Assembly: GCF_000820845.2 (NCBI RefSeq)
Contig: NZ_CBXV010000008.1
Location: 1 to 60,000 of the forward strand
Reading direction: 5' to 3'
Length of the DNA: 60,000 nucleotides
From: Pyrinomonas methylaliphatogenes
Lineage (GTDB): Bacteria > Acidobacteriota > Blastocatellia > Pyrinomonadales > Pyrinomonadaceae
Below, in pieces: positions 16,992-39,710 of the stretch. A program made the position numbers and the translations under genes. The notes beneath the pieces were generated by a model. The model was not told the origin of the DNA. It worked only from the letters and a program-made list of their open reading frames with translations, and did not search any database. How positions within the stretch are numbered: position 1 is the first letter of the stretch; every line of letters begins with the position of its first letter.

Positions 16992-18908
16992 TTACAAGCT
17001 TTGAGCCGTTTCTGAAGCGACCACCTCGCTGTGCTCGATGTCTTGTTGCCGCTCGCGCCGCAACCAAAATTCAAGCACGAGCAGATACCAGAGTTGATTG
17101 GGAGCAAGGCCCACCTTTACGGCCCTCCTCAACTGATCGATCACGGAAGCGGCTCTGATCCATCCCTCGCGTTCGAGAACGGAATCGCTGAAGACCTCTT
17201 CCATCAGCGCGCGCCAACGCCCGACCAACCATCTTCCGACGGGTATACTGAACCCTCTCTTCTTTCCACGCGCAACTCGCTCGTCGATGTGACGGCGAGC
17301 TAGCTCGCGAAGCACAGCTTTCAGAGTCCAGCCATGTAACCTTATTTCGAAAGGCAAAGATGACGCGAATTCCCACAGTTGATGATCCAAGAAAGGAGAA
17401 CGGGCTTCGATCGCGTAGTGCATCGTCGCTCCATCCACTTTGGTCAAATACTCTCCGGTGAATCGGGTTCGACGATCATAGCGCAAGAATTCTTCGAGCA
17501 GATCGCGCGCTGAGTCGAGCGAGCGTGGCAGTTGGCGTTGAGGAAGACGTTGGCCGATCAGCCGCTCGCCTAGAATCCCGTGAATCTCATAAAAGGGCAG
17601 CCCGTCACGAACGCATGCGACCGCCCCCAAGCCTCCAGTCGCGTAATCGAGAAAAGAGCCTGCGCGCTTGATGATCCCCGTTCGTGGCAACAGAGGCTTC
17701 ATCTTCTTCCATAGATCCGGCGCTGAAGACGGAAGATGACGAGCTATCCTTTGCGCGGCGTAGAAGTTCAGGTGTTCGGGATAACCGAGGAAGACATCGT
17801 CTCCGCCGTCGCCCGTCAGCATCACGGTCGCCGATTCGGCGAAAGCGCGCGAGATGCGCAGCATTCCAAGGGCCGAAGCGGCGCTGAAAGGCTCGGAAAA
17901 AGCTTCAGTCAACTCATCGACGGTGGGCGAATCGTCTGGCGACAATTCGAGTATCTCATGCTTGATCCCGAGACGACGCGCAGTCGCTTTCGCATCCGCC
18001 GATTCATCCGACGGATCGTTGGGCGTCGCGACGGTGAAAGCCGTCACGTCTCCGCCGAGCTTCGTGATCGCCCAACAGACTAGACTTGAGTCAACTCCGC
18101 CGCTCAGCAACGCGCCGACCGGCACGTCGGCTTGCAACCTCTTTTCGACTGCGCGCAAGAAAAGCTCTTCCGTGCGCTTCACGGCTTCCGCGAACGAGAT
18201 GCCTTTCGCCTCGTTGTCCTTCGGCGTTGGAAGATGCCAGTACTCGCGCGTCACGCAAGTTCTATTTGCGCCGTTCCACTCGAGGATGGTTGCGGCGGCG
18301 ACCTTTTTTACTTCCTTGTAGATCGAACGAGCGTCGGTGATGAAGCCGAACTCCAAGAATTCAAGAACGGCGCCGTCGTCGATCTCGTCGGCGAATCCTC
18401 CGAAACGCAACGCGCGTGCAGTGGAAGCGAAAGCGAGCGAACCATCCGGCCCGACATGGTAGAACAAGGGCTTTACGCCCAAACGATCGCGCACGAGGAA
18501 AAGTTTCTGCGCGTCTTCGTCCCAGAGGCCGAAGGCGAACATGCCGTGTATGCGCTCGACCAATCCATCGATTCCCCAGGCACGATACCCATGCAACAAG
18601 ACTTCGGTATCGGTGCGACTTTTGAACTTAAAACCCAAATTTTCAAGTTCGCGCCGCAGGTCCATGAAGTTATAGATCGCGCCGTTGAAAACGACGCCGA
18701 GTCTACGATCCGCAGTTACCATCGGCTGCCGCCCAGCTTCGCTTAGATCGAAGATGGCCAATCGCCGATGTCCCAAAACGGCGTTCTGCCATAGCTCCAA
18801 CCCGGCGCCGTTCGGGCCTCTTCGTTCGAGCGCACGCCTCATCCGAACGACCGCGCAGTGCGCGGCCCGCCTATCTTCGAAACCGACCACTCCGGCTATC
18901 CCGCACAT
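16992..18908 (-). CDS. asnB: Asparagine synthetase (glutamine-hydrolysing) type amidotransferase 2
   Basis: A 638-residue amidotransferase with Cys2 in MCGIAGVVGFED, RRGPNGAG and GHRRLAIFDLSEAGRQPM in the glutaminase half, and the PP-loop LLSGGVDSSLVCW in the synthetase half. The second half also has TGDGGDDVFLGYPEH, the SxGxDE-like loop of asparagine synthetases. It differs from the other two copies in the window by an N-terminal insertion and in the linker, so it is an older paralogue rather than a recent copy. It is transcribed just before two GT4 genes. Amide formation on a sugar acid is the favoured role; free asparagine synthesis cannot be excluded. Confidence 0.84.
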   Translation of the reverse strand: MCGIAGVVGFEDRRAAHCAVVRMRRALERRGPNGAGLELWQNAVLGHRRLAIFDLSEAGRQPMVTADRRLGVVFNGAIYNFMDLRRELENLGFKFKSRTDTEVLLHGYRAWGIDGLVERIHGMFAFGLWDEDAQKLFLVRDRLGVKPLFYHVGPDGSLAFASTARALRFGGFADEIDDGAVLEFLEFGFITDARSIYKEVKKVAAATILEWNGANRTCVTREYWHLPTPKDNEAKGISFAEAVKRTEELFLRAVEKRLQADVPVGALLSGGVDSSLVCWAITKLGGDVTAFTVATPNDPSDESADAKATARRLGIKHEILELSPDDSPTVDELTEAFSEPFSAASALGMLRISRAFAESATVMLTGDGGDDVFLGYPEHLNFYAAQRIARHLPSSAPDLWKKMKPLLPRTGIIKRAGSFLDYATGGLGAVACVRDGLPFYEIHGILGERLIGQRLPQRQLPRSLDSARDLLEEFLRYDRRTRFTGEYLTKVDGATMHYAIEARSPFLDHQLWEFASSLPFEIRLHGWTLKAVLRELARRHIDERVARGKKRGFSIPVGRWLVGRWRALMEEVFSDSVLEREGWIRAASVIDQLRRAVKVGLAPNQLWYLLVLEFWLRRERQQDIEHSEVVASETAQSL

Positions 18909-18946: not shown

Positions 18947-20884
18947 TCACCCTGAACTCGCAACCGGCGCAAAACGCTCAAAGGACGCCCGCGCCCGATC
19001 ACCTTCCCCATCAACGAACAAACGCGCCCACTTCTCAAGCATGAATAGCGCCCACAACCGCGTGGAATGATCACGCCGCCCGTTTTCATGCTCTTCGAGA
19101 AGAGTTTGCACGTAGCTCAGTGAAATGTAACCGCGCTGCCGCGCGCGCGATGACATCAGCGTGTCGCGAATCTGTTCGCGCAATTGCGCGTTGATCCACT
19201 CATCGATGGGCACACCGAACCCTTGCTTCGGGCGATGAAGTATCTCCGGCGGGACGATCCCCTCCACCGCACGCTTGAAGATGTATTTCAGCTTTCCGTC
19301 CTTGAGCTTCAGTTCGGGTGGGATGCGTCCGACGAGCTCGATCAAACGATGATCGAGCAATGGCGCGCGCGCTTCCAGCGAGACCGCCATGCTCATCCGA
19401 TCGACCTTGACGAGTATGTCACCGGGCAGATAGGTCTTGCTATCCAAATAGAGCAATCTGTTGATCGAATCATCCGCGCACATCTTCGCCGCGCGCTCCC
19501 GGAAAAGAGCGGTCGCATCGGCACCAGCTTGTCGCAATCTGGCTTTTAGATCATCACTGTAAAGCTTTTCTTTCGCGAGTGCCGTAAAAACCGAGACGTT
19601 GTCGATGTACCGGTCCAGAGAGTCTAGCGCGATGTTGTACAAATAATTTCGCCCCCAAAAACCGTGAGGGAGAAACCGGCTGACGGGCTGCATCACACCG
19701 CGCCGCAAAGGTCGCGGCAAACGTTCGAAAACGGCGCGTCTACTATCGACCGCGTAGCGCGTATAGCCAGCGAAAAGCTCATCGCCGCCATCGCCCGACA
19801 ACACAACCGTTACGTAATCGCGCGCCATCTTCGACACCATGTAGGTCGGGATGGCCGATGAATCGGCGAAAGGCTCATCGAAATGCCACGCGAGATCATC
19901 GACTATCTGGCAGATGCTCGGCGTGACGATGAACTCGTGATGATCGGTCTCGAAGCGTTTCGCCGCGAGGCGCGCGTACTTCAACTCGTTGTAGCTGTCT
20001 TCATTGAAACCGATGGAGAAGGTTTTGACGGGACGCACGCCAGCGCGTGCCATCAAACCGACCACCGTGCTCGAATCGACCCCGCCCGAAAGGAAAGCTC
20101 CGAGCGGCACATCGGCGATCAATCGAACTCGCACCGCATCTTCGAGACACGCGCGAAGCTCCTCGATCCACTCCTCTTCGCTTCTCCCTTCAATGGGGCA
20201 GTAATCGAAATCCCAGTATTGCTCGATTTTTATCTCACCGTTCGCGAAGATCAGGCGGTGGCCTGGCGGCAATTTCCGCACGCGACGAAAGATGCAAAGC
20301 GGGTCTGGAACATAGCCGAAGGTCAAATATGCATCGAGAGCCGCGTAGTCAATCTCGCGCTCGACTTCCGGATGTTCCAGAAGAGCCTTCAATTCGGAGC
20401 CGAAGATCAAGCTTCTCTGCGGCGTGAGCGTGTAGTAGAGCGGCTTCTTTCCGACGCGATCGCGCGCGATGAAAAGCCGCCGCGCCCGCTCATCCCAGAT
20501 GGCAAAGGCGAACATGCCGCGAAAATGATCGACGCAATCGAAGCCGTACTCTTCGTAAGCATGGACGATGGTCTCCGTATCGGAGTTGGTGCGAAAACGA
20601 TGGCCGCGCGCCTCGAGTTCGCGTTTGATCTCGCGGTAGTTGTAGATCTCGCCGTTGAAGATGACCGCCACCGTTCCGTCTTCGTTGAAGATGGGCTGAT
20701 GCCCGCCAGCGAGATCGATGATCGAAAGACGCCGCATCCCCAAGGCCACTTGATCGGTCACCAGCACGCCTTGATCGTCCGGGCCGCGATGCGTGATGAC
20801 GCGACACATGCGATCGAGCGTCTGCGAAGCTTCGGCGCGATCGAAGCCATTCTGTAGATTGACGAATCCGGTGATGCCGCACAT
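18947..20884 (-). CDS. asnB: Asparagine synthetase (glutamine-hydrolysing) type amidotransferase 3
   Basis: A 645-residue amidotransferase: Cys2 in MCGITGFVNLQNGF, HRGPDDQGVLVTD, MRRLSIIDLAGGHQPIF, and the PP-loop FLSGGVDSSTVVGL. LSGDGGDELFAGYTRYAVD carries the conserved GDGxDE loop. Its glutaminase half is closer to copy 1 (10192) than to copy 2. The start follows about 840 bases without a gene, so this enzyme probably heads a transcription unit that runs to copy 1. All catalytic landmarks are intact. The function is the same as for the other copies: glutamine-dependent amidation, either to asparagine or on a sugar acid. Confidence 0.85.
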   Translation of the reverse strand: MCGITGFVNLQNGFDRAEASQTLDRMCRVITHRGPDDQGVLVTDQVALGMRRLSIIDLAGGHQPIFNEDGTVAVIFNGEIYNYREIKRELEARGHRFRTNSDTETIVHAYEEYGFDCVDHFRGMFAFAIWDERARRLFIARDRVGKKPLYYTLTPQRSLIFGSELKALLEHPEVEREIDYAALDAYLTFGYVPDPLCIFRRVRKLPPGHRLIFANGEIKIEQYWDFDYCPIEGRSEEEWIEELRACLEDAVRVRLIADVPLGAFLSGGVDSSTVVGLMARAGVRPVKTFSIGFNEDSYNELKYARLAAKRFETDHHEFIVTPSICQIVDDLAWHFDEPFADSSAIPTYMVSKMARDYVTVVLSGDGGDELFAGYTRYAVDSRRAVFERLPRPLRRGVMQPVSRFLPHGFWGRNYLYNIALDSLDRYIDNVSVFTALAKEKLYSDDLKARLRQAGADATALFRERAAKMCADDSINRLLYLDSKTYLPGDILVKVDRMSMAVSLEARAPLLDHRLIELVGRIPPELKLKDGKLKYIFKRAVEGIVPPEILHRPKQGFGVPIDEWINAQLREQIRDTLMSSRARQRGYISLSYVQTLLEEHENGRRDHSTRLWALFMLEKWARLFVDGEGDRARASFERFAPVASSG

Positions 20885-22851: not shown

Positions 22852-23792
22852 TCACATCTTCCTCAACCAAATGCTCTGCGCAGAAGTCGGCATCATGCTG
22901 TAACTTGAATGCTTGGTGCATAGCGGCATGTGATGAGCGAAGAAGTCGCGGTGGAACTTTTCCAGAAAAGAATTGAAAAGCACTATTTCGAACTCGTTGT
23001 TGTATTGCAAAAATGCCCTCAACATATAAGCCTCGTTCCATGCACGCCCTTGATAGACCCATTCTTTGGGATACTCGAAGGGATAAAAGACGTCGTGAAA
23101 GTGAACATATACGCCCTCGTTGAGGACTGGCAGAACCTTGAAAAAGATGTGATTCACATCACTGCCCGTTTTAGCTACATGCGAGGAATCGACGAACAGG
23201 ATATCATTTGCTTCCAACTCGCGGAACAGACTCACATCCACATCTTGTATTTTGCTCGCCAAAATAGTCGTTCTATTCTTATCCTCGTCTTTGAGCAAAG
23301 ATATCAGCAAGTCCGGATATGGCTCGATGAAAGTCAGCGAAATAGAATTGCCAAGGAAGCGCTCATCAGTATCTAGGAAAACGCATGACGAATATCCGCA
23401 ACCGACTTCGATCACCCTCTTGGGCCGCAGGTATCGTAGCATAGAGTACAACAATATGGCATCGAAATAACTGAAAGCACTATTCTCGAAGAAATACCGA
23501 CAATCATCCCGCTTCTGCTCTGGGAAGGGTTGTTCAGCGTAGTACTGTTTCAAAATCTCAAGCAAGGCCAGTTGTTCGTTCTCGTTCAGATCGACGCCGC
23601 CGAGTTCTCGCGACTTAGCATCGAAGAGTCTCTTTCGTACTTTCTCACCTCTTCGATGGAAGGTATTGGCGAGTAGAAGTGACCCGGCAATTCCCACAAT
23701 TGATTCACGATGGCTCTTAGCTCATCTCTTTGAACGTAGGCTTTACCGATCAAAGGTATCCCCTTCGCAATCCGTCGCAGCCGATCTTTCAT
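22852..23792 (-). pseudogene. Class I SAM methyltransferase with a frameshift
   Basis: The reading frame from the ATG at 23792 (MKDRLRRIAKGIPLIG), preceded by GGAG at eight bases, runs through ELPGHFYSPIPSIEEVRKYE, a typical family N-terminus, and then falls out of frame near 23628. The rest, FDAKSRELGGVDLNENEQLA onward, is in another frame and carries the SAM motif KRVIEVGCGYSSCVFLDT, the FIEPYP strand and DILFVDSSHVAKTGSD. One base added in GACTCTTCGATG would restore a single continuous protein of about 312 residues. It is either a real lesion or a sequencing error. If translation begins inside the second frame (23697), a shorter protein lacking the N-terminal helix could still be made. Confidence 0.65.
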
Positions 23793-23995: not shown

Positions 23996-25033
23996 TCAAA
24001 CATAGAACATATCGAAAAGTTGCCGATCGAATTCTTCGCCATCCCAATCGAAGACGAACAACCGCGGCAACATGTATGGGTTCGTGTTCTTTCGGACCAA
24101 CCCAGAACCTGTGCTGCAAGCGCAATCGAAACCGGTGCTCTTGACCGCAGAGATCGTCTCTTCCGCATACGCGCCGTATGGATAGGCAAAACTGCGAACG
24201 CGACGCCCGCTCAACTCTTCCAAAAGGCGCTTGCTGCTGCTTATCTCTGCGCGCTGCGCTGCGTCGTCCAACGCCACAAGCAAAGGATGCGTTTCGGTAT
24301 GCGCCCCTATCTCGATCAACTCGCAATCAGCCAAGGCGGCAACCTCTGGCGAAACAATGAACTTATGAGTCCGGCGACATTCCGGCATCGAACCGATCTG
24401 TTTATGCAACTCGTCGAGTGCTCGTCTTTGCTCCGCTGCCGACAATGGTTGCAGCAGACGGTAAAGCTCCAGGTAAAGGGCATGGCGGGCGTGTGGCGGC
24501 GGCTCGCGCCAAGCGTCCCAAGAACGATGATGCTCATGCTCCTCTTCCGTGTAGAGCGCTCCCTCACCCAAATTCCATTCGCGGACTTCACCTTTGAGAC
24601 TCAGACGCAGCACCTGTGGCAAAACGCCCGGATGCAATAACATCTTTTCCAGCTCATCCCACCAAGCCTCGCGCTCGTTCTTCATCAAGCCGGTGGCGAT
24701 GAAAAAAGTCGCCGGCACATCATGCTTTTCGAGCAGAGGTTTTACGCAGTGCAAGTTATCTTCATAACCGTCATCGAACGTGATGACCACCGACTGCCGC
24801 GGCAAACGACCGTAGGCAAGGCCATCGGCGATCCGCCGCAGCTCTGACACCCTGTAATGGCGACGAAGAACTTCCAGATGTTCGGCGAAGTGCCGCGGCG
24901 CGACGGCCAACTTCCAAGGGTCCACGTCTAGTTCCGTGACGCGATGGTAGACCAGTATGAGCGCCTCGCGACGACTGTGCAGATAAAACCTCTTCGCCGT
25001 TCGTTTGAAACTTCGCAAACTGAACATTCTCAC
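23996..25033 (-). CDS. Polysaccharide deacetylase family protein
   Basis: A 345-residue NodB-homology protein. ALILVYHRVTE opens the domain, and VVITFDDGYEDNLHCVKPLL gives the catalytic and metal-binding D-D pair at about residue 100. The H-x3-H metal motif is IGAHTETHPLLV at about 255, and SFAYPYGAYAEETI completes the later active-site groove. It should remove N-acetyl or O-acetyl groups from a glycan. No signal peptide is evident, although residues 1-30 are basic and may be membrane-proximal. The GTG at 25033 overlaps the preceding stop (GTGA); an ATG two codons later is an alternative. Unlike the relic at 4063-4452, all catalytic motifs are present. Confidence 0.85.
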   Translation of the reverse strand: MRMFSLRSFKRTAKRFYLHSRREALILVYHRVTELDVDPWKLAVAPRHFAEHLEVLRRHYRVSELRRIADGLAYGRLPRQSVVITFDDGYEDNLHCVKPLLEKHDVPATFFIATGLMKNEREAWWDELEKMLLHPGVLPQVLRLSLKGEVREWNLGEGALYTEEEHEHHRSWDAWREPPPHARHALYLELYRLLQPLSAAEQRRALDELHKQIGSMPECRRTHKFIVSPEVAALADCELIEIGAHTETHPLLVALDDAAQRAEISSSKRLLEELSGRRVRSFAYPYGAYAEETISAVKSTGFDCACSTGSGLVRKNTNPYMLPRLFVFDWDGEEFDRQLFDMFYV

Positions 25034-26709
25034 TTCACAGCTCTCACCGCAACGATGACTGGATAGTGAGGGTCATAGGCTTCCAGTTCTTCGCGCCGCA
25101 ACTCCTCTTCGGCCAAACCGTAGAGGAACGCCGTCGCCGCCAGCACATTACCGTAGGAGCATACTTCCAAACGCTCCGCGCTGAAGATCTCTTCAAAGAG
25201 CTTCTCCGCCGACAACGTAGTTAAAGACCAATACCAAGAGCTTTTCCATTCGTAGCGGTCTATCCGACTGATCCCCGGGAAGGTGGCAAGCAAAACACCG
25301 CCCGGTTTTAGGATCCGGTACAAGGTCTTGACGGCAGCCCGCATGTCGTAGATCAAATGGAGCGTCTGCGTCAAGATTATGCAGTCGAACGCATCCGAAG
25401 GGATGTGATCTGCGCTGGTCAAATCGCCAACGATCGTTGCCCGCGGGTTGGCATCTGACACATGCAAGATGTCGCTCTGCGCGACGCGCGATCCACCATA
25501 GCGCACGGTATAAGCGTTATCGCCAATCTCCAACACGCGCCCCTTTATGTCGGCGGCATGCTGAGCGAGGAAGTTCTCTATGTAGTAACGGTCAACCGGT
25601 CTTCCGCGACCGAAACCGAAAGATTCGTCTATTGGCTCTGTGCGCCGCAAGTCGCCTAAGTTTACGCTCCCCAGCGGCGGTACATCATCGGATTTTCCGA
25701 GCAGATGCAGTTTGATCCATCGCCGCGCGCCGACCGGCAGGAGAACGCGTGCCACGCTTTTTGCAAACTCTTTGACACCCGGCGATCGCTTCTTCTGCGT
25801 GCCTTCACCATCGCTCATCGTCTCACGCAAAGCGGACCAGATATGTGGATCTTCGACTCCGCGAGCGATCAGATAATCTTGGCACCAGCTCAGATAGAAG
25901 AGACGAATCTCATGATACTTCAGCCTCGCGCGGGCCATGCAGGACGCATCGTGCACCCGATATTTCGTCCACGTTCGACTCGAAAGATAAACGGGCCACC
26001 TCAGATAGATTTTGGTCAAAAAGGCTTGATCCTCGTAAAGCTGATATGGACCATCAAAGCTCTCTTCAAATCCGCCCACGCTCTCTATGGCCTCTTTGCG
26101 CAAGAGCAGATCCGAAGGGCAGGGAGCATGCTCTTTCCCCAAAGGATATAGCGCCGTCAGCAGCGCGGGCGGATCAAATGATGCGTCTAGCGCGATTCCG
26201 TATGCGGGCACATAATCGCGCGCTGAGCTTTCTGCATCGCCCGCCCAACTGTGCCAGTAGAGACTGCGTCCAGCGACCATGCCAACTTGCGGATTCGCCC
26301 GCATGATTGAAATCTGCTCTTCCAGCTTCCGCGGAAGCCACACATCATCGCCGTCGAGAAGCGCGACGAACTCGCCGCGCGCTCGTCGCACCCCGAGATT
26401 CCGCGAGGCGCAAACGCCCCGATTGAGGTGTCCTTCATGCTCCAGGTAGAAGATCTGTTCCGGGTATTTGGCCGCATAGCTTCGCGCGATCCTCGTGCTC
26501 TCGTCGTTCGAACCATCATCGATCAAGAGCAACTCCCAATAACTATAAGTCTGCGCCAGCACGCTCTCGATCGCTTCGCTGAGGAAACGCCCGGCGTTGA
26601 AGAAAGGCGTGATGATTGAAACTAGCCGCCCGTCGCTCCCATCCATAGATGCACTGAGTGTGCTTGAACCCTGCCAACTTTCACCGGTGCGGTCGAATCC
26701 CCTGTTCAC
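25030..26709 (-). CDS. Fusion of glycosyltransferase family 2 and a SAM-dependent methyltransferase
   Basis: A 559-residue two-domain protein. Residues about 28-290 form a GT2 catalytic domain: VSIITPFFNAGRFLSEAIE, LLLIDDGSNDES, GEFVALLDGDDVWLPRKLEE (DGDD metal site), and YQLYEDQAFLTKIYL as acceptor motif. After a linker (TQKKRSPGVKEFAKS), residues about 390-555 form a class I methyltransferase: GRVLEIGDNAYTVRYGG, AFDCIILTQTLHLIYDM and LYRILKPGGVLLATFPG. It could add a sugar and then methylate it or its neighbour, a common way to cap a chain. The frame is continuous with no start signal between the domains. It overlaps the downstream deacetylase by four bases. Confidence 0.82.
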   Translation of the reverse strand: MNRGFDRTGESWQGSSTLSASMDGSDGRLVSIITPFFNAGRFLSEAIESVLAQTYSYWELLLIDDGSNDESTRIARSYAAKYPEQIFYLEHEGHLNRGVCASRNLGVRRARGEFVALLDGDDVWLPRKLEEQISIMRANPQVGMVAGRSLYWHSWAGDAESSARDYVPAYGIALDASFDPPALLTALYPLGKEHAPCPSDLLLRKEAIESVGGFEESFDGPYQLYEDQAFLTKIYLRWPVYLSSRTWTKYRVHDASCMARARLKYHEIRLFYLSWCQDYLIARGVEDPHIWSALRETMSDGEGTQKKRSPGVKEFAKSVARVLLPVGARRWIKLHLLGKSDDVPPLGSVNLGDLRRTEPIDESFGFGRGRPVDRYYIENFLAQHAADIKGRVLEIGDNAYTVRYGGSRVAQSDILHVSDANPRATIVGDLTSADHIPSDAFDCIILTQTLHLIYDMRAAVKTLYRILKPGGVLLATFPGISRIDRYEWKSSWYWSLTTLSAEKLFEEIFSAERLEVCSYGNVLAATAFLYGLAEEELRREELEAYDPHYPVIVAVRAVK

Positions 26710-27660
26710 CTATGAGAACAGGAACCTGTTCAGCTTCTCCTCGATCGGGAAGATCAACTTTCTTTCCAAAGGTTCGGCTCTTCGACCAGCAAGCCGCTCC
26801 AGCCGCCAAAGTATTGGCAACAAGGACAGGCGGCGATATTCGCGCCACCACTCCACTTGATAGTATCCGACCTCGACTTTTCTCTTCTCGCCGAAAGCTT
26901 TCATGCTCTCTTCCCCCCAAGCGTCGGACCAGCGGAGCAAGAAATAGGGGAGATCGGACAAAGTGACCCGCGGCGGCTTCCGAAACATTATCCTCGATTT
27001 CGGCTCAAGGTAGATCGTTCCGCCAGCTTCAACCACGCTCATGCAGAAATCGACGTGTTCCAGAACGCTCTTCAGTCTTTCATCCAAGGGGCCGATCTTT
27101 TGAAAGACGTCTCTGCGCACCAAGACAGTGTGAAACTCTATCAGATCACACTGAATTCGGCTTCGCGGCACTTCAGGATCATCCACGCGCCGCTCATATG
27201 ATGAGTGTTCCTCGACGAAGATGCGCTTGCCATCCTCTTCCGTTATTCGCCACCATCCGCCGGCCATGTGAACGCGCGGATCTTCCCACGACCCTTCGAG
27301 ATACAACGGCGCGACAACCCACGCATCTGTCTCTTCAGCACACGCAACGAGATTCTCCAGCCAACCTGGGGCGACTAGCACGTCGTTGTCAACGAAGACC
27401 ACGTATTTCGCGTCAGCGTGCTGAAGCCCGATGTTGCGCGCTTCATTAGGAGCGAGGTAACGATCAAACCTGACCAACTTGAATCCTTTATCGGCGGCCT
27501 CTCGCTCCAACCAGCGCCTGATCCCGCGCGGTGAATTCCCATCAACGTAAATCAATGAGAACGGGTACTGTGTGTTTTCATAAATGCTCTGTAGCGAAGT
27601 CCCAGCTCGACAGAAGCATTCGCGCGGCACGACGATGATGTTGACTTGTGAGCCGGTCAT
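26710..27660 (-). CDS. Glycosyltransferase family 2
   Basis: A 316-residue GT2 enzyme of the less typical group lacking the usual VSVIIPTYN start; it opens QVNIIVVPRECFCRAGTSLQ. The core strands are PFSLIYVDGNSPRG, then LAPNEARNIGLQHADAKYVV and FVDNDVLVAPGWLENL, where D-N-D is the metal site. AGGWWRITEEDGK and VLEHVDFCMSVVEAGG follow, the latter with the acceptor-site acidic residue. The start is secure: AAGGAGGTG, a near-perfect ribosome binding site, sits six bases from the ATG, the best one in this part of the window. It ends exactly where the fusion gene begins, so both are co-translated. Confidence 0.8.
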   Translation of the reverse strand: MTGSQVNIIVVPRECFCRAGTSLQSIYENTQYPFSLIYVDGNSPRGIRRWLEREAADKGFKLVRFDRYLAPNEARNIGLQHADAKYVVFVDNDVLVAPGWLENLVACAEETDAWVVAPLYLEGSWEDPRVHMAGGWWRITEEDGKRIFVEEHSSYERRVDDPEVPRSRIQCDLIEFHTVLVRRDVFQKIGPLDERLKSVLEHVDFCMSVVEAGGTIYLEPKSRIMFRKPPRVTLSDLPYFLLRWSDAWGEESMKAFGEKRKVEVGYYQVEWWREYRRLSLLPILWRLERLAGRRAEPLERKLIFPIEEKLNRFLFS

Positions 27661-27716: not shown

Positions 27717-28598
27717 TCACCACAGAAAGCGAATAGCCTGCTTCGGAGCGCAACGAAAAAGATCGAAGATCCGGCGCAAAGCGCTCGAATCCATCCCCCT
27801 TCTCCTTACATCATCCTTTATCTCGCGAACGCACAGTTGGCCGTAGTATCGGCGACAAAGATCCAATCCGCAATCCAACGCCCGCTGTAGATGGGGCTCG
27901 TCCCGCACATGCTCATCCTGATGTTCGAACACCTTCAAGATCGCGCGAAGCATCTTCAACGAATCGGATGACATGTTCGCGTGATGCATTCTGTACTCCG
28001 CCACAACGCTGGCGTGGCAACGAACGGGCCATCTTCTAGCGAGCCGCAGATAGAGCTCGTAATCTTCCGCTGGAGTGAAATCTGCATTGAAACCGCCGGC
28101 AGTCTCGAGCGCGCTTCGACGGAACATGACGATCGCCGTATGCCATATCGGACAGGCGTATTCGAGTAAAAAGGCGTAATAGTTTTCGATGTTCTCGGAT
28201 TGGAACTGCGCGGGCGTCGGGATCGGTTGCCCACTGGCATCGATATACCGGCACTTGCCAAAGACGAAGGCGCAATCGGGATCGACAGCCATCGCCTCCA
28301 AACCTAGTTTCAAGGCTTGCGGCAGTAACCGGTCGTCGGCATCGAGAAAGACGACGTATTCCCCGCAACTGGCTTCTAATCCGGCATTGCGCGCCATGGA
28401 GACTCCGCGATTCTCCTGCCTGATCAACTTCACCGCGGAGTAACGCGATGCGACTTCCGCTGTTTCATCCGGCGAGCCATCATCGACGACGATCACCTCG
28501 ACGCGCCGATGAGTTTGCCCGAGTGCGCTTTCGATGGCTTCAGACAGAAATCGAGCCTGTTTATAGCAAGGGATGACGATCGAAATCTGCTCGCTCAT
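27717..28598 (-). CDS. Glycosyltransferase family 2 (tandem paralogue 1)
   Basis: A GT2 enzyme starting at the ATG at 28598 (MSEQISIVIPCYKQARFLSE). The core has VEVIVVDDGSPDETAEVASR, IRQENRGVSMARNAGLEAS and EYVVFLDADDRLLPQALKL, whose D-A-D-D is the donor and metal site. FTPAEDYELYLRLARRWPV carries the acceptor-side ED. Three genes to the right (28796, 31541 and 32764) share this layout and many identical stretches, so this is one of a small amplified set. A frame extending to 28667 exists, but the homologous copies start at the MSx position. Composition is closer to the host than that of its neighbour at 28796. Confidence 0.82.
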   Translation of the reverse strand: MSEQISIVIPCYKQARFLSEAIESALGQTHRRVEVIVVDDGSPDETAEVASRYSAVKLIRQENRGVSMARNAGLEASCGEYVVFLDADDRLLPQALKLGLEAMAVDPDCAFVFGKCRYIDASGQPIPTPAQFQSENIENYYAFLLEYACPIWHTAIVMFRRSALETAGGFNADFTPAEDYELYLRLARRWPVRCHASVVAEYRMHHANMSSDSLKMLRAILKVFEHQDEHVRDEPHLQRALDCGLDLCRRYYGQLCVREIKDDVRRRGMDSSALRRIFDLFRCAPKQAIRFLW

Positions 28599-28795
28599 AG
28601 CCAATCGGATGCTAAGCCAATCTATCTGAATTTGAATTTTCGCCTTGTAGGACAATTGGCGCGTCATCCAACCTTAGACGCTTATTCATAAAGCCTAAGT
28701 CTAATTGTGATCTGATTAGAACTTTACGACTTTCTTCCGCCCCTCCACTCTTTCTCACAAGCTCAAATAAGCACACTGCTCGTGAGACTAAAAAA

Positions 28796-29722
28796 TCATA
28801 TGAGTTTTTCCATGAATGTACATCTTATTTTGCGGCAACCGTGATCTATAATCCCCTGTGGATAATAACGAAGCAGAACGAATAATCGCCCGAGCGATTG
28901 CACTAGTCCTAAATAACCGTAATCCCTAAACCGACATCTGATTTCTTCAACCACTCGCTCACCATATAGTTCTCGCCATCCTCTTATCCCGGCCTCATAA
29001 GCCTTTTGGTATTGCTCTTTCCCTTTAATGAATTGCCGTTGCAAATGCAATGCACGAATGGCCGATTTCAACATAAGACTGCTGTCGCGCGACAAAGATT
29101 CAGCATGTAGGCGATATTCCGCAACCAAATTGTCGTGCTTTCCTATCGGGAATTGCCGGCAAATGCGAAGATATAATTCATAGTCTTCGCAAACCATGAA
29201 TGTCTCATCGAATCCATAGAGCCGCTCAAGAACTTCTCTCCGGTACATTACCGTACCGTGCATGCCGATGAAATTTCGAACGAGCATCTCCTCATAACTA
29301 TCCCCACAGTCCTCAACGGAAACGGATCCTTGCTGTCCCTGCGGAAGCGGAGCGCCATTTACATCTATGTAGCGATAGCGACCATAAACAAAGGCCCACT
29401 CCTGATTTAGATCGAGTTGGCGTGAGCCAATCTCCAGTGCCCCTGGTAGAAGACGATCATCCGAATCTAGGAAGGTCACGTACTCCCCACAGCTCGCCGC
29501 TAACCCTCTATTACGAGCCCCGGCCAATCCACGATTGCTTTGCCTGATTAAGCGCACACGATCGTAACTAGCAGCAACATCAGACGTCTCATCTGTTGAG
29601 CCATCATCTACAACGATCAGCTCAAATCGCGGATGCTCTTGATACAGGACGCTCTCGATGGCTTCCCGCAGAAACTTAGCCTGGTTGTAGCAAGGGATGA
29701 TCACTGATACCAGCTTAAGCAT
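28796..29722 (-). CDS. Glycosyltransferase family 2 (tandem paralogue 2)
   Basis: A 308-residue GT2 enzyme: LVSVIIPCYNQAKFLREAIE, LIVVDDGSTDETSDVAAS, RQSNRGLAGARNRGLAAS, then EYVTFLDSDDRLLPGALE with the D-S-D-D metal site and MVCEDYELYLRICRQFPI. It aligns from end to end with the genes at 27717 and 31541, including the C-terminal region after about residue 230. It is AT-richer than 27717. About 400 bases without a gene precede its start, so it probably begins a transcription unit with its own promoter. It has no membrane segment, which suggests a soluble or peripheral transferase at the cytoplasmic face. Confidence 0.84.
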   Translation of the reverse strand: MLKLVSVIIPCYNQAKFLREAIESVLYQEHPRFELIVVDDGSTDETSDVAASYDRVRLIRQSNRGLAGARNRGLAASCGEYVTFLDSDDRLLPGALEIGSRQLDLNQEWAFVYGRYRYIDVNGAPLPQGQQGSVSVEDCGDSYEEMLVRNFIGMHGTVMYRREVLERLYGFDETFMVCEDYELYLRICRQFPIGKHDNLVAEYRLHAESLSRDSSLMLKSAIRALHLQRQFIKGKEQYQKAYEAGIRGWRELYGERVVEEIRCRFRDYGYLGLVQSLGRLFVLLRYYPQGIIDHGCRKIRCTFMEKLI

Positions 29723-30119
29723 TTTGACCTTTCCCTTGAAGTACCTAGAAGTTATCTAAAAAATAGCAGAAGCTGAGATGAACTGAGTGGTAAACGCTAT
29801 TATGAGATAGCTTCTAGATTATTTTTGAAGAACACTTGGATCTAATTTACCTTATTCGCTGAGATAGAGTTAAGACCGACGTCATTCACGAAGTCAAGGT
29901 TTCTATACCTAGCCTAACAGTCCGTTCATTCTCCCTCTTTTGCATTCGCCGATAACGCGCATCAGCTTTCGAGTTGGCAAACCTCAACTTCAATTTATCA
30001 CTATCAATCACGCCTGTATCTATTACTCCGAGTTATATTTGATTGTTTCAAGCTTATCAGCTTAGATTCTTAAAATTCTTAACGTCGAAATCTCAGGATC
30101 GAAATTAGTGAACTAGCCC
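29723..30119. other. AT-rich gene-free region
   Basis: About 400 bases with no supported gene and a much lower GC than the glycosyltransferase genes around it. Stop codons are dense in all frames. It separates the GT4 gene at 30120 from the GT2 gene at 28796 and may hold the latter's promoter. No hairpin with a T-run, insertion-sequence end or RNA gene was recognised. Confidence 0.45.
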
Positions 30120-31421
30120 TCACCCCTTGTGAGGACAGGTTTTTAGTGCCGAGTTCGTCCGTATCCCGAAATATCTACTTAGACACCCTGCCAACGTTGA
30201 AGCAACGACAGCGCGACTTTGGTGAGTGACGTAGAAATCTCGCCCTTTCCTTGAAAGCTCATCGAGAATATTCGGGGAATGTAGCAATCGAGACAGCTGG
30301 GCGACAAATTGCTCAGCATCATCAGCAATTAAGAGATGCTCATTGGGTTGTAGCCCAGCAATACCGCGCGCCCCAATCGAGGTACTTAAAACCGGCAGGC
30401 CATAGGCAAAAGATTCGATAATTCTAGTGCGTAACCCAGCGGCATCAGTGGATGCAACGAGTTGCAAGTCACAAGCCTTGTAATATGGGGTAATATCTTC
30501 AACGAAACCAATGAAAGACACGTTCTTGTAAGCCGAGGCCAGAGCCAACACTCTTCTCGACCGCTCGTCATCATCTATTTTCCCTACTACATGCACCGCA
30601 ATTCGATCTAACACTTGCGGAGGCAACAACGGGAACACGTTCTCGAAAAGAAACTCGAGCGAACGGTAGCTGGGCAAGTGGCTCAACCGACCCAAATGTA
30701 ACAAGTGCAAGCGTCCATCTTGCATCCAATTACCTACCTTCCTGTCACCGCCGTCGCCCGGAATACTCATAGGAAGATACTCTACGCGGCAAGATGGAAT
30801 TTCTGAACGTAAAAGGTCCCGGTCATAAGCTGAAATGCACAGTATCAATGGAGCACGTCTTGCCATCAAGCGTTCCGCCCGTTTAGAGAACCTCAACTCT
30901 CTCTTTTCAGCCACACTCAGGGGACGACGATCGATCTCGCAAGCGATTTTGGCAGTAGCTTTAACAACTGCCGAGGGTAAGTCGTGAAGACTCCAAACAA
31001 CGCGCGCCCTCCTATAAACCCAAGGAATAATGTTGGCCAACGATTCGCCTTCGAACTGATGAATTGCCTCTGGATGCAATCTATATCGAGCGGCAAACTC
31101 GCGGGCGACAGTGTCATGATAAGGGAAATAGTGGCGCATAGCAGAGCGATACGGGAAACCTACTCTGAACATTAGCCGCCCAAGGAGCGAATACCTCCCG
31201 TTCTCTCTAGGTACACGAACCCAACTAATGGGGCGAAGATCATCGGAAGGTATGGATTCATCAGCAGCGCTAGCTATATGAATTAGTTCTACCTCAAAAC
31301 CCAGATCTAAGTAAGCTTGTATATTCGAGTAGAAGCGAAGGCTGGCACCGCTCCCTTGTTTTTGCGGCATCGTCTCAAGATAAATAAACACCCGACGTGA
31401 CGATTCAGTAACAGAACGCAT
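30120..31421 (-). CDS. Glycosyltransferase family 4
   Basis: A 433-residue GT4 enzyme. The N-terminal domain includes VFIYLETMPQKQGSGASLRF with a G-S-G acceptor loop, AIHQFEGESLANIIP and VVWSLHDLPSAVVKA. The donor domain has LHLLHLGRLSHLPSYRSLEF and then ESFAYGLPVLSTSIGARGIA, with the conserved E of the sugar-phosphate site in IIESFAYG. A basic region (RELRFSKRAERLMARRA) forms the linker. It lies in the AT-rich part of the locus, flanked by gaps on both sides, so it may have arrived separately. Product not assignable. Confidence 0.8.
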   Translation of the reverse strand: MRSVTESSRRVFIYLETMPQKQGSGASLRFYSNIQAYLDLGFEVELIHIASAADESIPSDDLRPISWVRVPRENGRYSLLGRLMFRVGFPYRSAMRHYFPYHDTVAREFAARYRLHPEAIHQFEGESLANIIPWVYRRARVVWSLHDLPSAVVKATAKIACEIDRRPLSVAEKRELRFSKRAERLMARRAPLILCISAYDRDLLRSEIPSCRVEYLPMSIPGDGGDRKVGNWMQDGRLHLLHLGRLSHLPSYRSLEFLFENVFPLLPPQVLDRIAVHVVGKIDDDERSRRVLALASAYKNVSFIGFVEDITPYYKACDLQLVASTDAAGLRTRIIESFAYGLPVLSTSIGARGIAGLQPNEHLLIADDAEQFVAQLSRLLHSPNILDELSRKGRDFYVTHQSRAVVASTLAGCLSRYFGIRTNSALKTCPHKG

Positions 31422-31540
31422 GAGCAGCCACCTTTACAGACTGTGTATTAAGAACCGAACTGATGCTGTTTCAACACAGAACCACTAAAGCTACGTAGGG
31501 CTTCAAGGATCAAGACCTACTGAGACAAGATGTTAAGTGA

Positions 31541-32545
31541 TTAACTATCAAGGTCATTCCTAGCTATCTCTTCGATTGATCCCTGATTACGAGATATCGT
31601 TGAGCTAGAGTACAAACTGTCTATGTCGCTTGGAATTCCAGCAATCAAGCAATAGATTTTCCGAAAAACGTGTTTAGGGATGCTTTGTGGATACCACCGC
31701 AGTAAAGCATACAAGCCTTGAGCTACTACCTTCCAATCATGCTTTCGCAAGCCGCATCTGATGCTGTTTACCACCCTCTCTCCATATATCTCTTTAGCAC
31801 TTCTCCAACCAATACCAAACGCTTCTTTCAATCTTCTATCTTTTTGAACATATTTTTTCTGAGACTTCAGGGCAGCTAAAGCCCCTTGAAACATCAAGCT
31901 GGCTTTGGTACTCATACTTCCCTCATAAATACGATACTCTATAACATCCTGATGATGACATAAAATCGAAAACTGTCGTGCTATTCTTAGATACAACTCC
32001 CAATCTTCAACCGCGTGCTGGGACTCATTGAAAAAACCAACTTCATCTAACACTCCACGCCGAAACATCACCGCTCCTGGGGGATATATGTAACAACTCT
32101 GCAACAAGTGAAAGTAATGATCTTCCTCCGGACAGCGAGGTTTACTCTGCGGCGATATCTGCGATCCGTCTAGGGCCATCAATCTATGGTGCCCATAAAC
32201 AAAAGCACACTCCGGATGTTTCAGCAAACACTCAAGATGGCTTTCAAGCGCATGGGGCAGCAGCCTATCGTCTGCGTCCAGAAAGACCAGATATTCGCCT
32301 TTGCTCTCTGCTATCCCGCGATTTCTCGCTCCGGACAAGCCGCGGTTCTCTTGTCTGACGCACTTCACCTCGGCGTATCTCGCAGCCACTTCCGAAGTAT
32401 TGTCAGGCGATCCGTCGTCGATGACGATCGTCTCCACATTGCGGTACGTTTGACGGAGCACGCTTTCGATCGCTTCGCTTAGAAAATGAGCCTGCTTGTA
32501 GCAAGGGATGATGACCGAAACCAATGGATTTTCCTTATCGCTCAT
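31541..32545 (-). CDS. Glycosyltransferase family 2 (tandem paralogue 3)
   Basis: A GT2 enzyme with NPLVSVIIPCYKQAHFLSEA, TIVIDDGSPDNTSEVAAR, RQENRGLSGARNRGIAES, then EYLVFLDADDRLLPHALES (D-A-D-D) and HAVEDWELYLRIARQFSI. The start is the ATG at 32545, preceded by CGGAGAG at the right distance; a longer frame reaches 32593. It is the closest relative of 28796 and 27717 in the set, with the N-terminal half nearly collinear. The C-terminal 30 residues after CLIAGIP do not match the others. Low GC in its second half suggests mixed ancestry. Confidence 0.83.
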   Translation of the reverse strand: MSDKENPLVSVIIPCYKQAHFLSEAIESVLRQTYRNVETIVIDDGSPDNTSEVAARYAEVKCVRQENRGLSGARNRGIAESKGEYLVFLDADDRLLPHALESHLECLLKHPECAFVYGHHRLMALDGSQISPQSKPRCPEEDHYFHLLQSCYIYPPGAVMFRRGVLDEVGFFNESQHAVEDWELYLRIARQFSILCHHQDVIEYRIYEGSMSTKASLMFQGALAALKSQKKYVQKDRRLKEAFGIGWRSAKEIYGERVVNSIRCGLRKHDWKVVAQGLYALLRWYPQSIPKHVFRKIYCLIAGIPSDIDSLYSSSTISRNQGSIEEIARNDLDS

Positions 32546-32763
32546 AGCAACTCTCCGAGGAGAAGATGATTTGCAATTCAGCAGTGCTGCCACTGAACTG
32601 CTGGTGTTTCTATACAGAGTTAGACAGAGTCATAGAAACTCTTCAAGTCATCGTCGCTTCTCTCGACGCCGAGAAGTATGCAACGACATTTGCGAAACAC
32701 ATGGCGAATGAATCCATGAGGATATAAACGAACCAGCGTCGGCAGATCTTTGCCGATCTGACG

Positions 32764-33567
32764 TCAATGCTCGTTTCTCCAAGCGCGTCTGATGTCGTTG
32801 ACCAACTCCTCGCCATACAATTTGTGAAGTCGATCGTACCCGGCTTTGTAAGCTTTTCTTAAAGTTTCATCCTGTCTCACATACTTCCACTGATCGACCA
32901 TAACCTTGTGTGCTTGAACAAACAACAGCGCCGTCTTCCGGCTGCTATTCATCCCATGAATTCTGTATTCGGCGACTATGTGATCGTGAAAGACCACCGG
33001 ATATGAACGAGCGATGCGCAGATACATCTCCCAATCTTCCGCCGGGGCATAGCGTCCATCGAACAAGCCAACTAAATCGAAAACGCCTCGACGGTACATG
33101 GCCATAGCGGGCATGAAGATGCTGTTGCCTTTGAGCAAATATTCATAGGGTGTACCATCAAGACTTTTTCTAGTGTGGACCTCAAACACCTCGCCATTTT
33201 TGTTGATCATTCTAGCAAGTCCGGCGACGATCATGGCTTCTGGATGAGAGCCGAACTGCTTCAATCCGATCTCGACAGCATCCGGCAAAAGGCGATCATC
33301 TCCATCCAACAAAACGATGAATTCGCCGGAACAGGCGCGCACTCCGGTGTTTCTCGCTGCAGCGACGCCCTGGTTTTTCTGCTTGATGTACTTGATCCCG
33401 CTGAATCGGGCTGCCACCTCTTCTGATCCGTCAGTCGATCCATCATCTATCACAAAGATCTCCAGATTGCGGTGACTTTGCCCCAGCGCGCTCGCGATCG
33501 CTTCGCCGAGATACGGCGCTTGGTTATAGGTGGTGATAATGATGGAGACTTTCGAATCTTTAAACAC
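32764..33567 (-). CDS. Glycosyltransferase family 2 (tandem paralogue 4)
   Basis: A 267-residue GT2 enzyme: VSIIITTYNQAPYLGEAIAS, LEIFVIDDGSTDGSEEVAAR, then EFIVLLDGDDRLLPDAVEI (D-G-D-D) and YAPAEDWEMYLRIARSYPV. It is shorter than the other three related genes, ending soon after YGEELVNDIRRAWRN, so the C-terminal 40 residues seen in them are absent. The start appears to be GTG (33567), with only a weak purine-rich signal upstream. It is next to the ABC transporter genes. Soluble cytoplasmic transferase; donor and acceptor unknown. Confidence 0.82.
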   Translation of the reverse strand: MFKDSKVSIIITTYNQAPYLGEAIASALGQSHRNLEIFVIDDGSTDGSEEVAARFSGIKYIKQKNQGVAAARNTGVRACSGEFIVLLDGDDRLLPDAVEIGLKQFGSHPEAMIVAGLARMINKNGEVFEVHTRKSLDGTPYEYLLKGNSIFMPAMAMYRRGVFDLVGLFDGRYAPAEDWEMYLRIARSYPVVFHDHIVAEYRIHGMNSSRKTALLFVQAHKVMVDQWKYVRQDETLRKAYKAGYDRLHKLYGEELVNDIRRAWRNEH

Positions 33568-33640: not shown

Positions 33641-34837
33641 TCAAGACTCAGCGAATATCTTTCCAGTTACAGCTTCTTCCACTTTCTCCACGAAGCGCCA
33701 TGTGTGAGGCAGGTAGAACCGTCCGCGGAAACTCTTTCCGGGATCAACACGAAACGTCGCGCAACGGAACTTCCAATCTTTGTCGAACGTCACATCTATA
33801 AAGTACATTCCGGGAGCAAGACCCAACTCCGGACAGTGGAATTCAACATACCCCTCACTCTGCTCCGCAAAGACGCTCCTATCGGTGAAAAGTTGGCTGG
33901 TTAGCTCCCCCTCAGGAGTGTAGAAGAAAACTTCAATCGAACTTTCGACGGGTTTGCAATAGACTCGGTATTTAACTTTGACGATCAAAGCATCTCCCGT
34001 TTGTAGTGAAGCAACGAGATCTCCTTTTTCGTTGTGAAAAGACACGGAGACGATTTCAGCTCCGCTTTTCTGAGCCCCCTTCTGCCCAGTCAATGCCACG
34101 AGATCGGCCGCTCTTCTTTGATATTCCGCAATCACCTCGCGCGGTTCACCTTCTGCGACCAAACGGCCCCGCTCCATCAACAGCACGCGATCGCACAACC
34201 TCTCGACCGCCGCCAAATCATGCGAGATGAAGACGATGGTTTTGCCGCTTTCGCGCAGTTCGCGCACGCGCTGTAAACACTTCGCTTGAAAGCTCGCGTC
34301 TCCGACGGCGAGCACTTCGTCGAGAAGCAGCACGTCCGCATCCAAGTGCGCGGCGATGGCAAATCCCAATCGCACATACATCCCGGAAGAGTAGCGTTTG
34401 ACGGGAGTATCGATGAACTCCCGCACGCCAGCGAACTCGATGATTTGATCGAGCTTGGCTTCGATCTCGCGCCGCTTCATCCCCAAGATCGAACCGCTCA
34501 AGAAGATGTTCTCGCGCCCGGTGAGTTCCGGATGGAACCCCGAGCCGACTTCGATCAGAGCGGCCAATCGCCCGTTGATCGTGATCTCGCCTGAAGTCGG
34601 CGTCGTTATATTAGATAGAAGCTTCAATATGGTGCTCTTTCCAGCGCCGTTATGCCCGATGATGCCGAGCGCCTCGCCGCGCTTGACTTCGAAAGAGACG
34701 TCGCGCAGCGCCCAGAAGTCTTCCGACCGCGTGCGTAACCGGTTCCACGCCCGAACGAGCGGGTTACGCGAAACCGTGCCGTCTTCGTGGCGTATGCGGT
34801 AACGCTTGGATACCTTATCGAAACGAAGATCTATCAT
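33641..34837 (-). CDS. wzt: Polysaccharide ABC transporter ATP-binding protein (Wzt-type)
   Basis: A 398-residue ATPase for polysaccharide export. Walker A is IIGHNGAGKSTILKLL at about 60-75. The signature is YSSGMYVRLGFAIA, Walker B is DVLLLDEVLAVGD, and the switch His is in IVFISHDLAAVERLC. After the ATPase domain (about 1-245), a C-terminal beta-sandwich (SGAEIVSVSFHNEKGD to the end) resembles the Wzt carbohydrate-binding domain that recognises the finished, capped chain. Such a domain implies export of a complete polymer to be read at its non-reducing end. The permease follows 23 bases downstream in the same operon. A terminal modification such as methylation is expected; several methyltransferases are in the locus. 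Confidence 0.9.
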   Translation of the reverse strand: MIDLRFDKVSKRYRIRHEDGTVSRNPLVRAWNRLRTRSEDFWALRDVSFEVKRGEALGIIGHNGAGKSTILKLLSNITTPTSGEITINGRLAALIEVGSGFHPELTGRENIFLSGSILGMKRREIEAKLDQIIEFAGVREFIDTPVKRYSSGMYVRLGFAIAAHLDADVLLLDEVLAVGDASFQAKCLQRVRELRESGKTIVFISHDLAAVERLCDRVLLMERGRLVAEGEPREVIAEYQRRAADLVALTGQKGAQKSGAEIVSVSFHNEKGDLVASLQTGDALIVKVKYRVYCKPVESSIEVFFYTPEGELTSQLFTDRSVFAEQSEGYVEFHCPELGLAPGMYFIDVTFDKDWKFRCATFRVDPGKSFRGRFYLPHTWRFVEKVEEAVTGKIFAES

Positions 34838-34860: not shown

Positions 34861-35712
34861 TTAAACCACATCAGCCAAAGTCGCTTCCAAACGTTTGAAG
34901 AAAACGTAGGCCACGGGAAGCAACGCGAAAGAGACCAAAGCTGCCACGATCAAGGCGTAAAGATCAGGCGCCGCGCCTTGAAGGACAACGCGCCGGAAGT
35001 TCTCGACGATCCCGGCCATCGGATTCAAAACGTAAAAGGGATACAACCTTGCTGGCACAGCGCTCAGCGGATAGACGACGGGCGAAGCGAAGAGCCACAG
35101 TTGCATCAGAAGCGGCATCGCCATGCCGATGTCGCGAAAGTAGACTTGAAGCGCCGAGAGCACCAGCGTCACGCCGAGCATGAAGACGGTCAGCACAGCA
35201 ACGATGGGCACGACCCAAAGGATCAACAGGGTCGGCACGATCCCGTAGTAGATCATCATCACCGCCAGCACGCTCGCTCCAACCGTCAGGTCGAAGAGCG
35301 AAGCGACGACATAGGTCGCTGGCAAAATCTCGCGCGGGAAATAGACCTTTGTCACAAGGTGCGAGTGACTGACGAGCGAGTTAGTGCCGCTCGTCAACGC
35401 GTTCGAAAAACTGGTCCACGGAAGCAGCGCGGCGTAAGCGAAGACGGCATAGGGCATCCCTTCGCTTGGCATGCGCGTGACGATCGAGAAGATCAGCGTG
35501 TAGATCAACATCAAGGTGAACGGTTGCACGATGGCCCAGGCGAAGCCGAGCATGGACTGTTTGTAACGCACCTTCACCCGATGCGCGCTCAGCGTGTAGA
35601 ACAGATCCCGGTATTCGACGAGCGCGCGGACGCTTTGCCACAAGCCGCGCCACGAAAGCGACGGCGCGCGGATGACCTTGATGCGTCGTTTATCCTCGGC
35701 CAATTCAAGCAT
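34861..35712 (-). CDS. wzm: Polysaccharide ABC transporter permease (Wzm-type)
   Basis: A 283-residue ABC-2 permease. A cytoplasmic N-terminus with HRVKVRYKQSMLGFAWAIVQ, the family marker before the first membrane helix, precedes about six helices: FTLMLIYTLIFSIV, AVFAYAALLPWTSF, TVGASVLAVMMIYYG, LTVFMLGVTLVLSAL, LMQLWLFASPVVYPL and LIVAALVSFALLPVAYVFF. The PFYVLNPMAGIVENFRRVVL stretch is the conserved C-terminal signature of these permeases. With the ATPase encoded downstream it moves a lipid-linked glycan across the inner membrane. Length is typical. The stop is followed by the ATPase start within 25 bases. Confidence 0.9.
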   Translation of the reverse strand: MLELAEDKRRIKVIRAPSLSWRGLWQSVRALVEYRDLFYTLSAHRVKVRYKQSMLGFAWAIVQPFTLMLIYTLIFSIVTRMPSEGMPYAVFAYAALLPWTSFSNALTSGTNSLVSHSHLVTKVYFPREILPATYVVASLFDLTVGASVLAVMMIYYGIVPTLLILWVVPIVAVLTVFMLGVTLVLSALQVYFRDIGMAMPLLMQLWLFASPVVYPLSAVPARLYPFYVLNPMAGIVENFRRVVLQGAAPDLYALIVAALVSFALLPVAYVFFKRLEATLADVV

Positions 35713-39506: not shown

Positions 39507-39710
39507 TTCAGCTTCCGCGCTGCACGGTGTCCAGATCCGTACCGACGCAGCCATCTTCCTTCACGCGCCTCCATGCGCCCAACCTCTATCCTCATCCCCT
39601 CGACGCAGTTACCCCTTCGCCTCGCGCATCACGCTCGAAACGAGCGAAGGCGGGATCTGGATTGAAGGCGCTTTTCTGGCCTTCAGCTAAAACGGCCTAT
39701 GCCACCCCTC

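Follow-up and report, generated by a model that had tools for sequence, protein, structure and literature searches.

What does a protein do that joins a glycosyltransferase to a methyltransferase in a single chain, and does it finish the glycan exported by the neighbouring transporter? The question is raised by a 60,000-nucleotide stretch of Pyrinomonas methylaliphatogenes DNA (contig NZ_CBXV010000008.1, positions 1 to 60,000; hereafter the window), which carries such a fusion at 25030-26709, in a locus that also encodes the ATP-binding cassette (ABC) exporter pair Wzm and Wzt. The original prediction, made from the sequence alone, proposed that the fusion may be the enzyme that caps the glycan chain by methylation, the cap being read by the C-terminal domain of Wzt. 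Our analysis partly supported this interpretation, which had overlooked the gene that follows the fusion, a NodB-type polysaccharide deacetylase, and the absence of the usual S-adenosylmethionine (SAM) motif. On balance, it is probable that the family 2 glycosyltransferase (GT2) domain, the methyltransferase-fold domain and the deacetylase constitute a cassette that acts on a lipid-linked glycan while it is still in the cytosol, ahead of its ABC export.

The fusion and its deacetylase partner

The fusion is encoded on the minus strand by an uninterrupted single open reading frame (ORF) of 559 amino acids (aa), and comprises a GT2 domain (residues ~28-290), a linker (~291-344) and a methyltransferase-fold domain (~345-559). 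The proposal of one 559-residue protein with both domains in one chain was borne out by this uninterrupted ORF and by the Pfam matches. Its GTG start at 26709 directly abuts the stop of the upstream GT2 gene (26710-27660, minus strand). An ATG at 26646-26644 (codon 22) is an alternative start, perhaps giving 538 codons in vivo, and it may be the true one, since residues 1-24 have a predicted local distance difference test (pLDDT) score below 50 in the AlphaFold model and the matches to two plasmid homologues begin at residues 31 and 30. The GT2 domain matched PF00535 over residues 31-149 (E 4.2e-29, 102.1 bits; curated cut-off 23.3) and contains the DxD and general-base regions that define family 2, with D64-D65, DxDD 119-122, E226-D227 and H253 retained by 57-60 of the 60 aligned fusion sequences, the window copy among them. 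A hydropathy scan detected no membrane segment in the fused GT2, and no kinase domain was found in the window fusion. The whole chain was modelled with a pLDDT of 86.9 and a predicted template modelling score (pTM) of 0.58, the orientation of the domains being unsure. Confidence is low for residues 1-24 and for the linker (pLDDT ~50-67), in which helices of 18, 11 and 10 residues were predicted. Longer, charged linkers that appear coiled-coil-like by eye occur at loci L023 and L026, while genome G328 (L032:2203-3648) has a CBM_4_9 carbohydrate-binding domain between GT2 and methyltransferase, and L035 looks alike by eye.

Homologues of the full-length type, covering 95% of the fusion, were found on plasmids of Indioceanicola (43.7% identity) and Novosphingobium (35.9%), the latter annotated merely as 'glycosyltransferase', and both are followed by a deacetylase gene, with a one-chain ABC gene nearby. 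A sequencing or assembly artefact was rejected because the same fusion is present in other genomes, including these plasmids. In our genome collection, 522 of 529 pattern matches were relatives of the methyltransferase domain, and the best 80 of the 522 gave 79 loci, which lean to close relatives of the query and include several near-copies (Scytonema, Brasilonema, Pontibacter). These loci span Bacteroidota, Cyanobacteriota, Chloroflexota, Planctomycetota, Pseudomonadota and others, and 52 of the 79 carry the GT2-methyltransferase fusion, which rejects the idea of a unique fusion; it is widespread in bacteria, not rare. Directly upstream of the domain in the 27 unfused loci lie a GT2 gene (14), an ABC gene (4), a contig edge (3; L061, L076 and L097) or something else (6). 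Within the phylum of the window, the domain was detected at E<=1e-10 in 16 of 396 genomes, and among the closer relatives in 7 of 60 (window genome counted in both); the genome of the window itself has a single copy. A quick tree of the 108 domains called for at least 18 changes in the fused state, and therefore fused and split forms seem interchangeable, this number being approximate, as L061, L076 and L097 lie at contig edges, many forks are weakly supported and L028 was labelled unfused though GT2 domains were later shown in its chain (L135). Alignment A2 excludes duplicate copies as well as L036, L037, L068 and L026, the last of which has a masked stretch.

The steadiest partner of the fusion is the deacetylase. 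In the window it is the next gene (23996-25033, minus strand), its start overlapping the fusion stop by 4 bases (GTGA), and it belongs to the NodB-homology family, with a PF01522 match of 91.6 bits (cut-off 23.1) and all three catalytic motifs (TFDDG, HTETHP and FAYPYG). A deacetylase homologue starts at most 300 bp from the end of the domain in 62 of the 79 loci, and is fused to it in one more; within 1.5 kb downstream, tandem copies allowed, one is found in 68. In the phylum of the window, 15 of the 20 regions that carry the domain have PF01522, as against 6 of 40 control GT2 regions of the same genomes (Fisher p 8e-6), counts that, like those of Wzt_C below, were made by eye from match lists. 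A hidden Markov model (HMM) of the deacetylase gave 15 of 20 regions against 2 of 40 controls; as it was trained on genes of these very loci, the PF01522 count is the fairer. The phylum holds 24 places with the domain outside the window, 21 of them within the 20 regions taken (the three not taken are G231:C210 and two on G328:C11), and five of these regions are shorter than 20 kb (L123, L124, L125, L132 and L135). The controls were hand-picked from the PF00535 list and are not random, six being shorter than 20 kb; those with PF01522 were L140, L143, L159, L163 (at edge), L173 (weak) and L178, and L173 itself has a match to the HMM of the methyltransferase family.

The association extends to single polypeptides, since GT2, methyltransferase and deacetylase form one chain in L084 (1019 aa), L032/L128 and L023/L130, and the deacetylase shares a chain with the fusion domains in four genomes, L135 having another domain order. 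This last chain is a single open frame of 1654 aa (L135:3-4964) in the order GT2-GT2-deacetylase-methyltransferase. The hydropathy scan detected no membrane segment or signal peptide in the window deacetylase, and no hydrophobic segment in L084, in the L032 stretch or in 63 of 65 deacetylase domains taken with 40 residues upstream, fused ones included. Because of this lack of hydrophobic segments, the deacetylase is most likely cytosolic and would meet the glycan before export. A periplasmic deacetylase of the PgaB/IcaB kind was rejected given the same 63 of 65 sequences and the fusion to GT2-methyltransferase chains.

The methyltransferase-fold domain and its missing motif I

The third member of the proposed cassette lies at 25033-25689 (minus strand) and has the family signature RGxPxDRYYIExFL...EIGDxxYTxxFGG...FDCxILTQTL...GNVLxAxAFLxG, with no GxGxG. 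Pfam Methyltransf_11 matched residues 422-474 of the fusion (E 1.7e-8, 35.4 bits; cut-off 21.2), and AlphaFold, supplied with 108 sequences, gave a model of it with a mean pLDDT of 93.4. A structural search with this model returned SAM methyltransferases as top matches (best 2gs9_A, Z 14.9, root-mean-square deviation 3.1, 178 residues aligned), and 983 of 1000 pre-selected chains had a Z of at least 8. The domain is thus predicted to adopt the seven-stranded, Rossmann-like fold of class I methyltransferases, and a shared fold by itself is no proof of function.

Both catalytic cores had been thought intact, which holds for the GT2 residues and, by prediction, for the methyltransferase fold, but not for the SAM-binding motif I. 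The canonical E/DxGxGxG was found in 0 of the 108 aligned family domains, window included. The corresponding stretch in the window copy reads E394-I-G-D-N-A-Y400; position 400, the third glycine of motif I, is Tyr in 108 of 108 sequences, at position 398, the second glycine, 47 sequences have Asn and 27 have Asp, and GxG occurs elsewhere within 385-412 in 7 domains. Among PDB chains, 14 gave profile matches at E<0.01, all of which begin only after the motif I loop. NodS, WbdD and WsaE were absent among these 14 matches and the 50 structural matches listed, an absence that excludes nothing.

The family has nevertheless its own strong pattern of conservation. Ten residues are invariant in all 108 sequences (P359, G365, G369, D373, Y400, C443, L474, W494, G520 and G531), the polar or aromatic R368, D373, Y376, Y400, D429, W494 and N521 are invariant or nearly so even in sequences that share as little as 36% identity with the window copy, and the motif-III-like Asp429 is kept in 106. 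The window copy matches every column conserved at 90% or more. As regards METHYLTRANSFERASE intactness, the domain is therefore sound when judged against its own family but unusual among class I methyltransferases, as the family is strongly conserved, the window conforms to it and E/DxGxGxG is missing. In six cyanobacterial loci (L050, L052, L054, L064, L070 and L072), two tandem methyltransferase-family genes or domains precede the deacetylase, which suggests two methylations or two acceptors.

Exporter context and the weighing of explanations

In the locus of the fusion, Wzt (33641-34837; ABC ATPase), Wzm (34861-35712; ABC-2 type membrane subunit, PF01061) and several glycosyltransferase genes all lie on the minus strand. 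The C-terminal domain attributed to this Wzt was confirmed by a Wzt_C (PF14524) match (E 2.4e-9, 37.8 bits; cut-off 30.4). Wzt_C was matched at E<0.01 in 23 of the 32 Wzt proteins examined, window's included; a locus with such a Wzt is not general in the family of the fusion. A phmmer search with the C-terminal piece of the window Wzt had detected no Wzt_C in relatives, and this result was dropped, as Pfam did find Wzt_C in them. Two further Wzt_C proteins are encoded elsewhere in the genome of the window, versus the single copy of the methyltransferase-fold domain.

The exporter census considered the 48 loci whose flanks each extend to 7 kb or more, 33 fused and 15 unfused. Both Wzm and Wzt accompany 16 of the 33 fused loci and one of the two accompanies 2 more, so that the expected adjacency of the same fusion to this exporter was found in other genomes. 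Another 12 fused loci have a one-chain ABC exporter without any Wzm/Wzt detected, and in the remaining 3 no exporter was in reach (L054, L098 and L108; L098 has a 259-aa ABC ATPase nearby, below our length rule), so the supposed tie to ABC exporters failed in these 3. The corresponding numbers for the 15 unfused loci were 6, 1, 1 and 7. With both kinds and partial exporters counted, an ABC exporter was thus in reach of 30/33 fused versus 8/15 unfused loci (Fisher p 0.006), a raw difference that is a weak hint, as the correlation yields 2 independent pairs only and p = 1 once relatedness is allowed for. Wzm and Wzt with Wzm upstream on the same strand occur in 30 of the 79 loci, including 18 of the 24 that belong to Bacteroidota. 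The three one-chain exporters scanned consist of ABC_membrane and ABC_tran, with no Wzt_C. In the phylum of the window there is no Wzt enrichment near the domain: Wzt_C was found in 1 of 20 domain regions versus 2 of 40 controls (L141 and L142), while HMM searches gave Wzm in 1 of 20 versus 5 of 40 and one-chain ABC exporters in 3 of 20 (two partial frames) versus 3 of 40.

The analysis establishes the architecture, a recurrent gene order, cytosol-compatible sequences, a predicted fold and conserved GT2 and deacetylase motifs. In the reading that we favour, the GT2 domain would add an N-acetylated sugar to the lipid-linked glycan, the deacetylase would then free the amine of that sugar, the methyltransferase-fold domain would modify the same residue, most simply by methylation, and the exporter would then move the finished lipid-linked glycan out. 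Here we infer the action of the three enzymes on one residue, the donor and acceptor sugars, the use of SAM by the third domain and the position in the chain; the order of deacetylation and methylation would be that of Nod factors, borrowed by analogy from the available text on that system (PMC5080398).

Several observations weigh against the three-enzyme cassette. Besides the absence of motif I throughout the family, the deacetylase motifs are not universal: of 65 homologues, 62 keep TFDDG, 55 H[ST]xxHP and 46 FAYPxG. Moreover, 11 of the 79 loci lack a deacetylase within 1.5 kb after the domain, and 6 have none in reach by HMM, one of these, L104, having a deacetylase start cut by the contig end. 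The deacetylase is also missing from 5 of the 20 regions of the window's phylum, where the contig ends within ~1 kb in L123 and L125 and not in L124, L127 and L138. In addition, the target of the deacetylase could be a different residue within the glycan.

The capping role first proposed for the fusion, in which the final sugar would come from GT2 and its methyl group from the methyltransferase, the C-terminal domain of Wzt reading this methylated end as an export permit, is unlikely in our judgement as an account of the fusion. It would agree with the Wzm/Wzt pair and Wzt_C of the window and with the adjacency seen in about half of the well-covered fused loci, and it is modelled on two precedents, as far as described in the available parts of the reports: WsaE, one chain with a methyltransferase and two glycosyltransferase domains to which a role in a 2-O-methyl cap is ascribed and which is encoded beside wzm-wzt (PMC2943079), and the Aquifex Wzt, which binds a 3-O-methyl cap (PMC9445017). 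However, 12 of the 33 fused loci have one-chain exporters and 3 neither kind, the three one-chain exporters scanned lack Wzt_C (the one scanned with NCBIfam being HepA-like, below cut-off), the model contains no long linker helix (in a linker of low confidence), and the role leaves the deacetylase unexplained. Because of these mixed exporter types and the lack of Wzt_C enrichment in the phylum, a cap is possible for the window and is not the defining trait of the fusion.

Alternatively, the cassette may decorate every repeat or a side branch, as ordinary tailoring of an exopolysaccharide, with no role in termination or export. This explanation is doubtful but deserves consideration, since the cassette occurs with Wzm/Wzt, with one-chain ABC exporters and with neither, and is therefore not tied to one export route; the excess of exporters near fused loci speaks against it, weakly once relatedness is considered. 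The likelihoods that we give to these readings and to the favoured cassette overlap, as a cap or the decoration of repeat units could each be the cassette's work. A further explanation concerns the third domain, which could have a methyltransferase fold without SAM catalysis and serve as a sugar-binding or assembly module joining GT2 and deacetylase. The missing E/DxGxGxG, the invariant Tyr in that loop and the PDB profile matches that start only past motif I would agree with such a module, but R368, D373, Y376, Y400, D429, W494 and N521 look like an active or ligand site and the motif-III-like Asp429 is nearly always kept, which makes it quite improbable.

Known systems, the wider locus and significance

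The E. coli protein WbdD is reportedly a methyltransferase-kinase that terminates an ABC-exported O antigen. Klebsiella O7 ORF6, also a terminator of an ABC-exported O antigen, resembles the window fusion in having its methyltransferase domain in a multidomain protein, and differs, according to the available text, in being a methyltransferase-kinase with a coiled-coil ruler and the usual SAM-binding glycines (PMC11231755). In contrast to both, the window fusion has no kinase found, no GxGxG, no long helix in its low-confidence linker, and a deacetylase partner. WsaE, of the S-layer glycan of Geobacillus stearothermophilus, likewise combines glycosyltransferase and methyltransferase in one soluble protein beside wzm-wzt, and chain-end methylation is discussed for it as termination; unlike in the window, its methyltransferase is N-terminal with two glycosyltransferase domains behind, and no deacetylase partner appears in the part of its description available (PMC2943079).

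The same three activity classes as in the cassette, GT2, NodB-type deacetylase and methyltransferase, are found in NodC, NodB and NodS, and the accessible portion of the Nod-factor literature states that chitooligomers are never N-methylated without prior deacetylation by NodB, at the non-reducing end (PMC5080398). The window differs from this system in its fused GT2 without a membrane segment, and a NodA-type acyltransferase was not found among the window ORFs scanned with Pfam. The NodB of Nod-factor synthesis was rejected as the identity of the window deacetylase (TIGR04243, 38.3 bits versus an equivalog cut-off of 240). It would be a bold and rather improbable extension to regard the cassette as a non-symbiotic counterpart of NodC-NodB-NodS, in which an N-acetylhexosamine would be added to a lipid-linked glycan and deacetylated and its amine N-methylated, with SAM bound by a new loop, E-x-G-D-x-x-Y-T, in place of GxGxG, and in which, at Wzm/Wzt loci, the C-terminal domain of Wzt would recognise the resulting cationic N-methyl amino sugar as marking the chain end.

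The HepA-family loci of cyanobacteria offer another comparison, as the order GT2, one-chain ABC exporter, GT2-methyltransferase fusion and deacetylase is found in L049, L060, L066 and L069 (Nostocales, Tolypothrix and Scytonema). The best NCBIfam match of the L049 exporter, the sole one scanned, was HepA at 586 bits, below the cut-off of 725, which does not establish it as HepA. Our literature search, which covered few subscription papers, found no paper on a GT2-methyltransferase-deacetylase cassette.

In the window, four further GT2 genes (starting at 27717, 28796, 31541 and 32764) and one GT-B-type glycosyltransferase gene (30120) lie between the GT2 neighbour of the fusion and Wzt (27717-33567, minus strand). 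A Methyltransf_24 methyltransferase (22852-23697) is encoded right after the deacetylase gene, and the same cluster includes an FkbM-type methyltransferase (8171-9079) and three asparagine-synthase-like proteins (10192-12138, 16992-18908 and 18947-20884). Two Wzy_C or O-antigen-ligase-type proteins are encoded beside Wzm/Wzt (37977-39554 and 45119-46669), the former resembling the exosortase-associated ligase model TIGR03097 with a score below cut-off, and at 47997-49808 there is a 603-aa chain with a polyprenol-phosphate sugar transferase domain (PF00953) and CoA_binding_3.

Overall, the fusion is real, widespread and, as far as the literature searched goes, uncharacterised, and it is similar in kind to known glycan-finishing enzymes. 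If the cassette does produce a deacetylated, methylated sugar, a chemical mark could be predicted for many surface glycans that are as yet uncharacterised, and the range of ends that the cap-binding domain of Wzt can read could be tested on a concrete case. Besides, a methyltransferase-fold family without the usual SAM glycines poses a clear question for structural biology.

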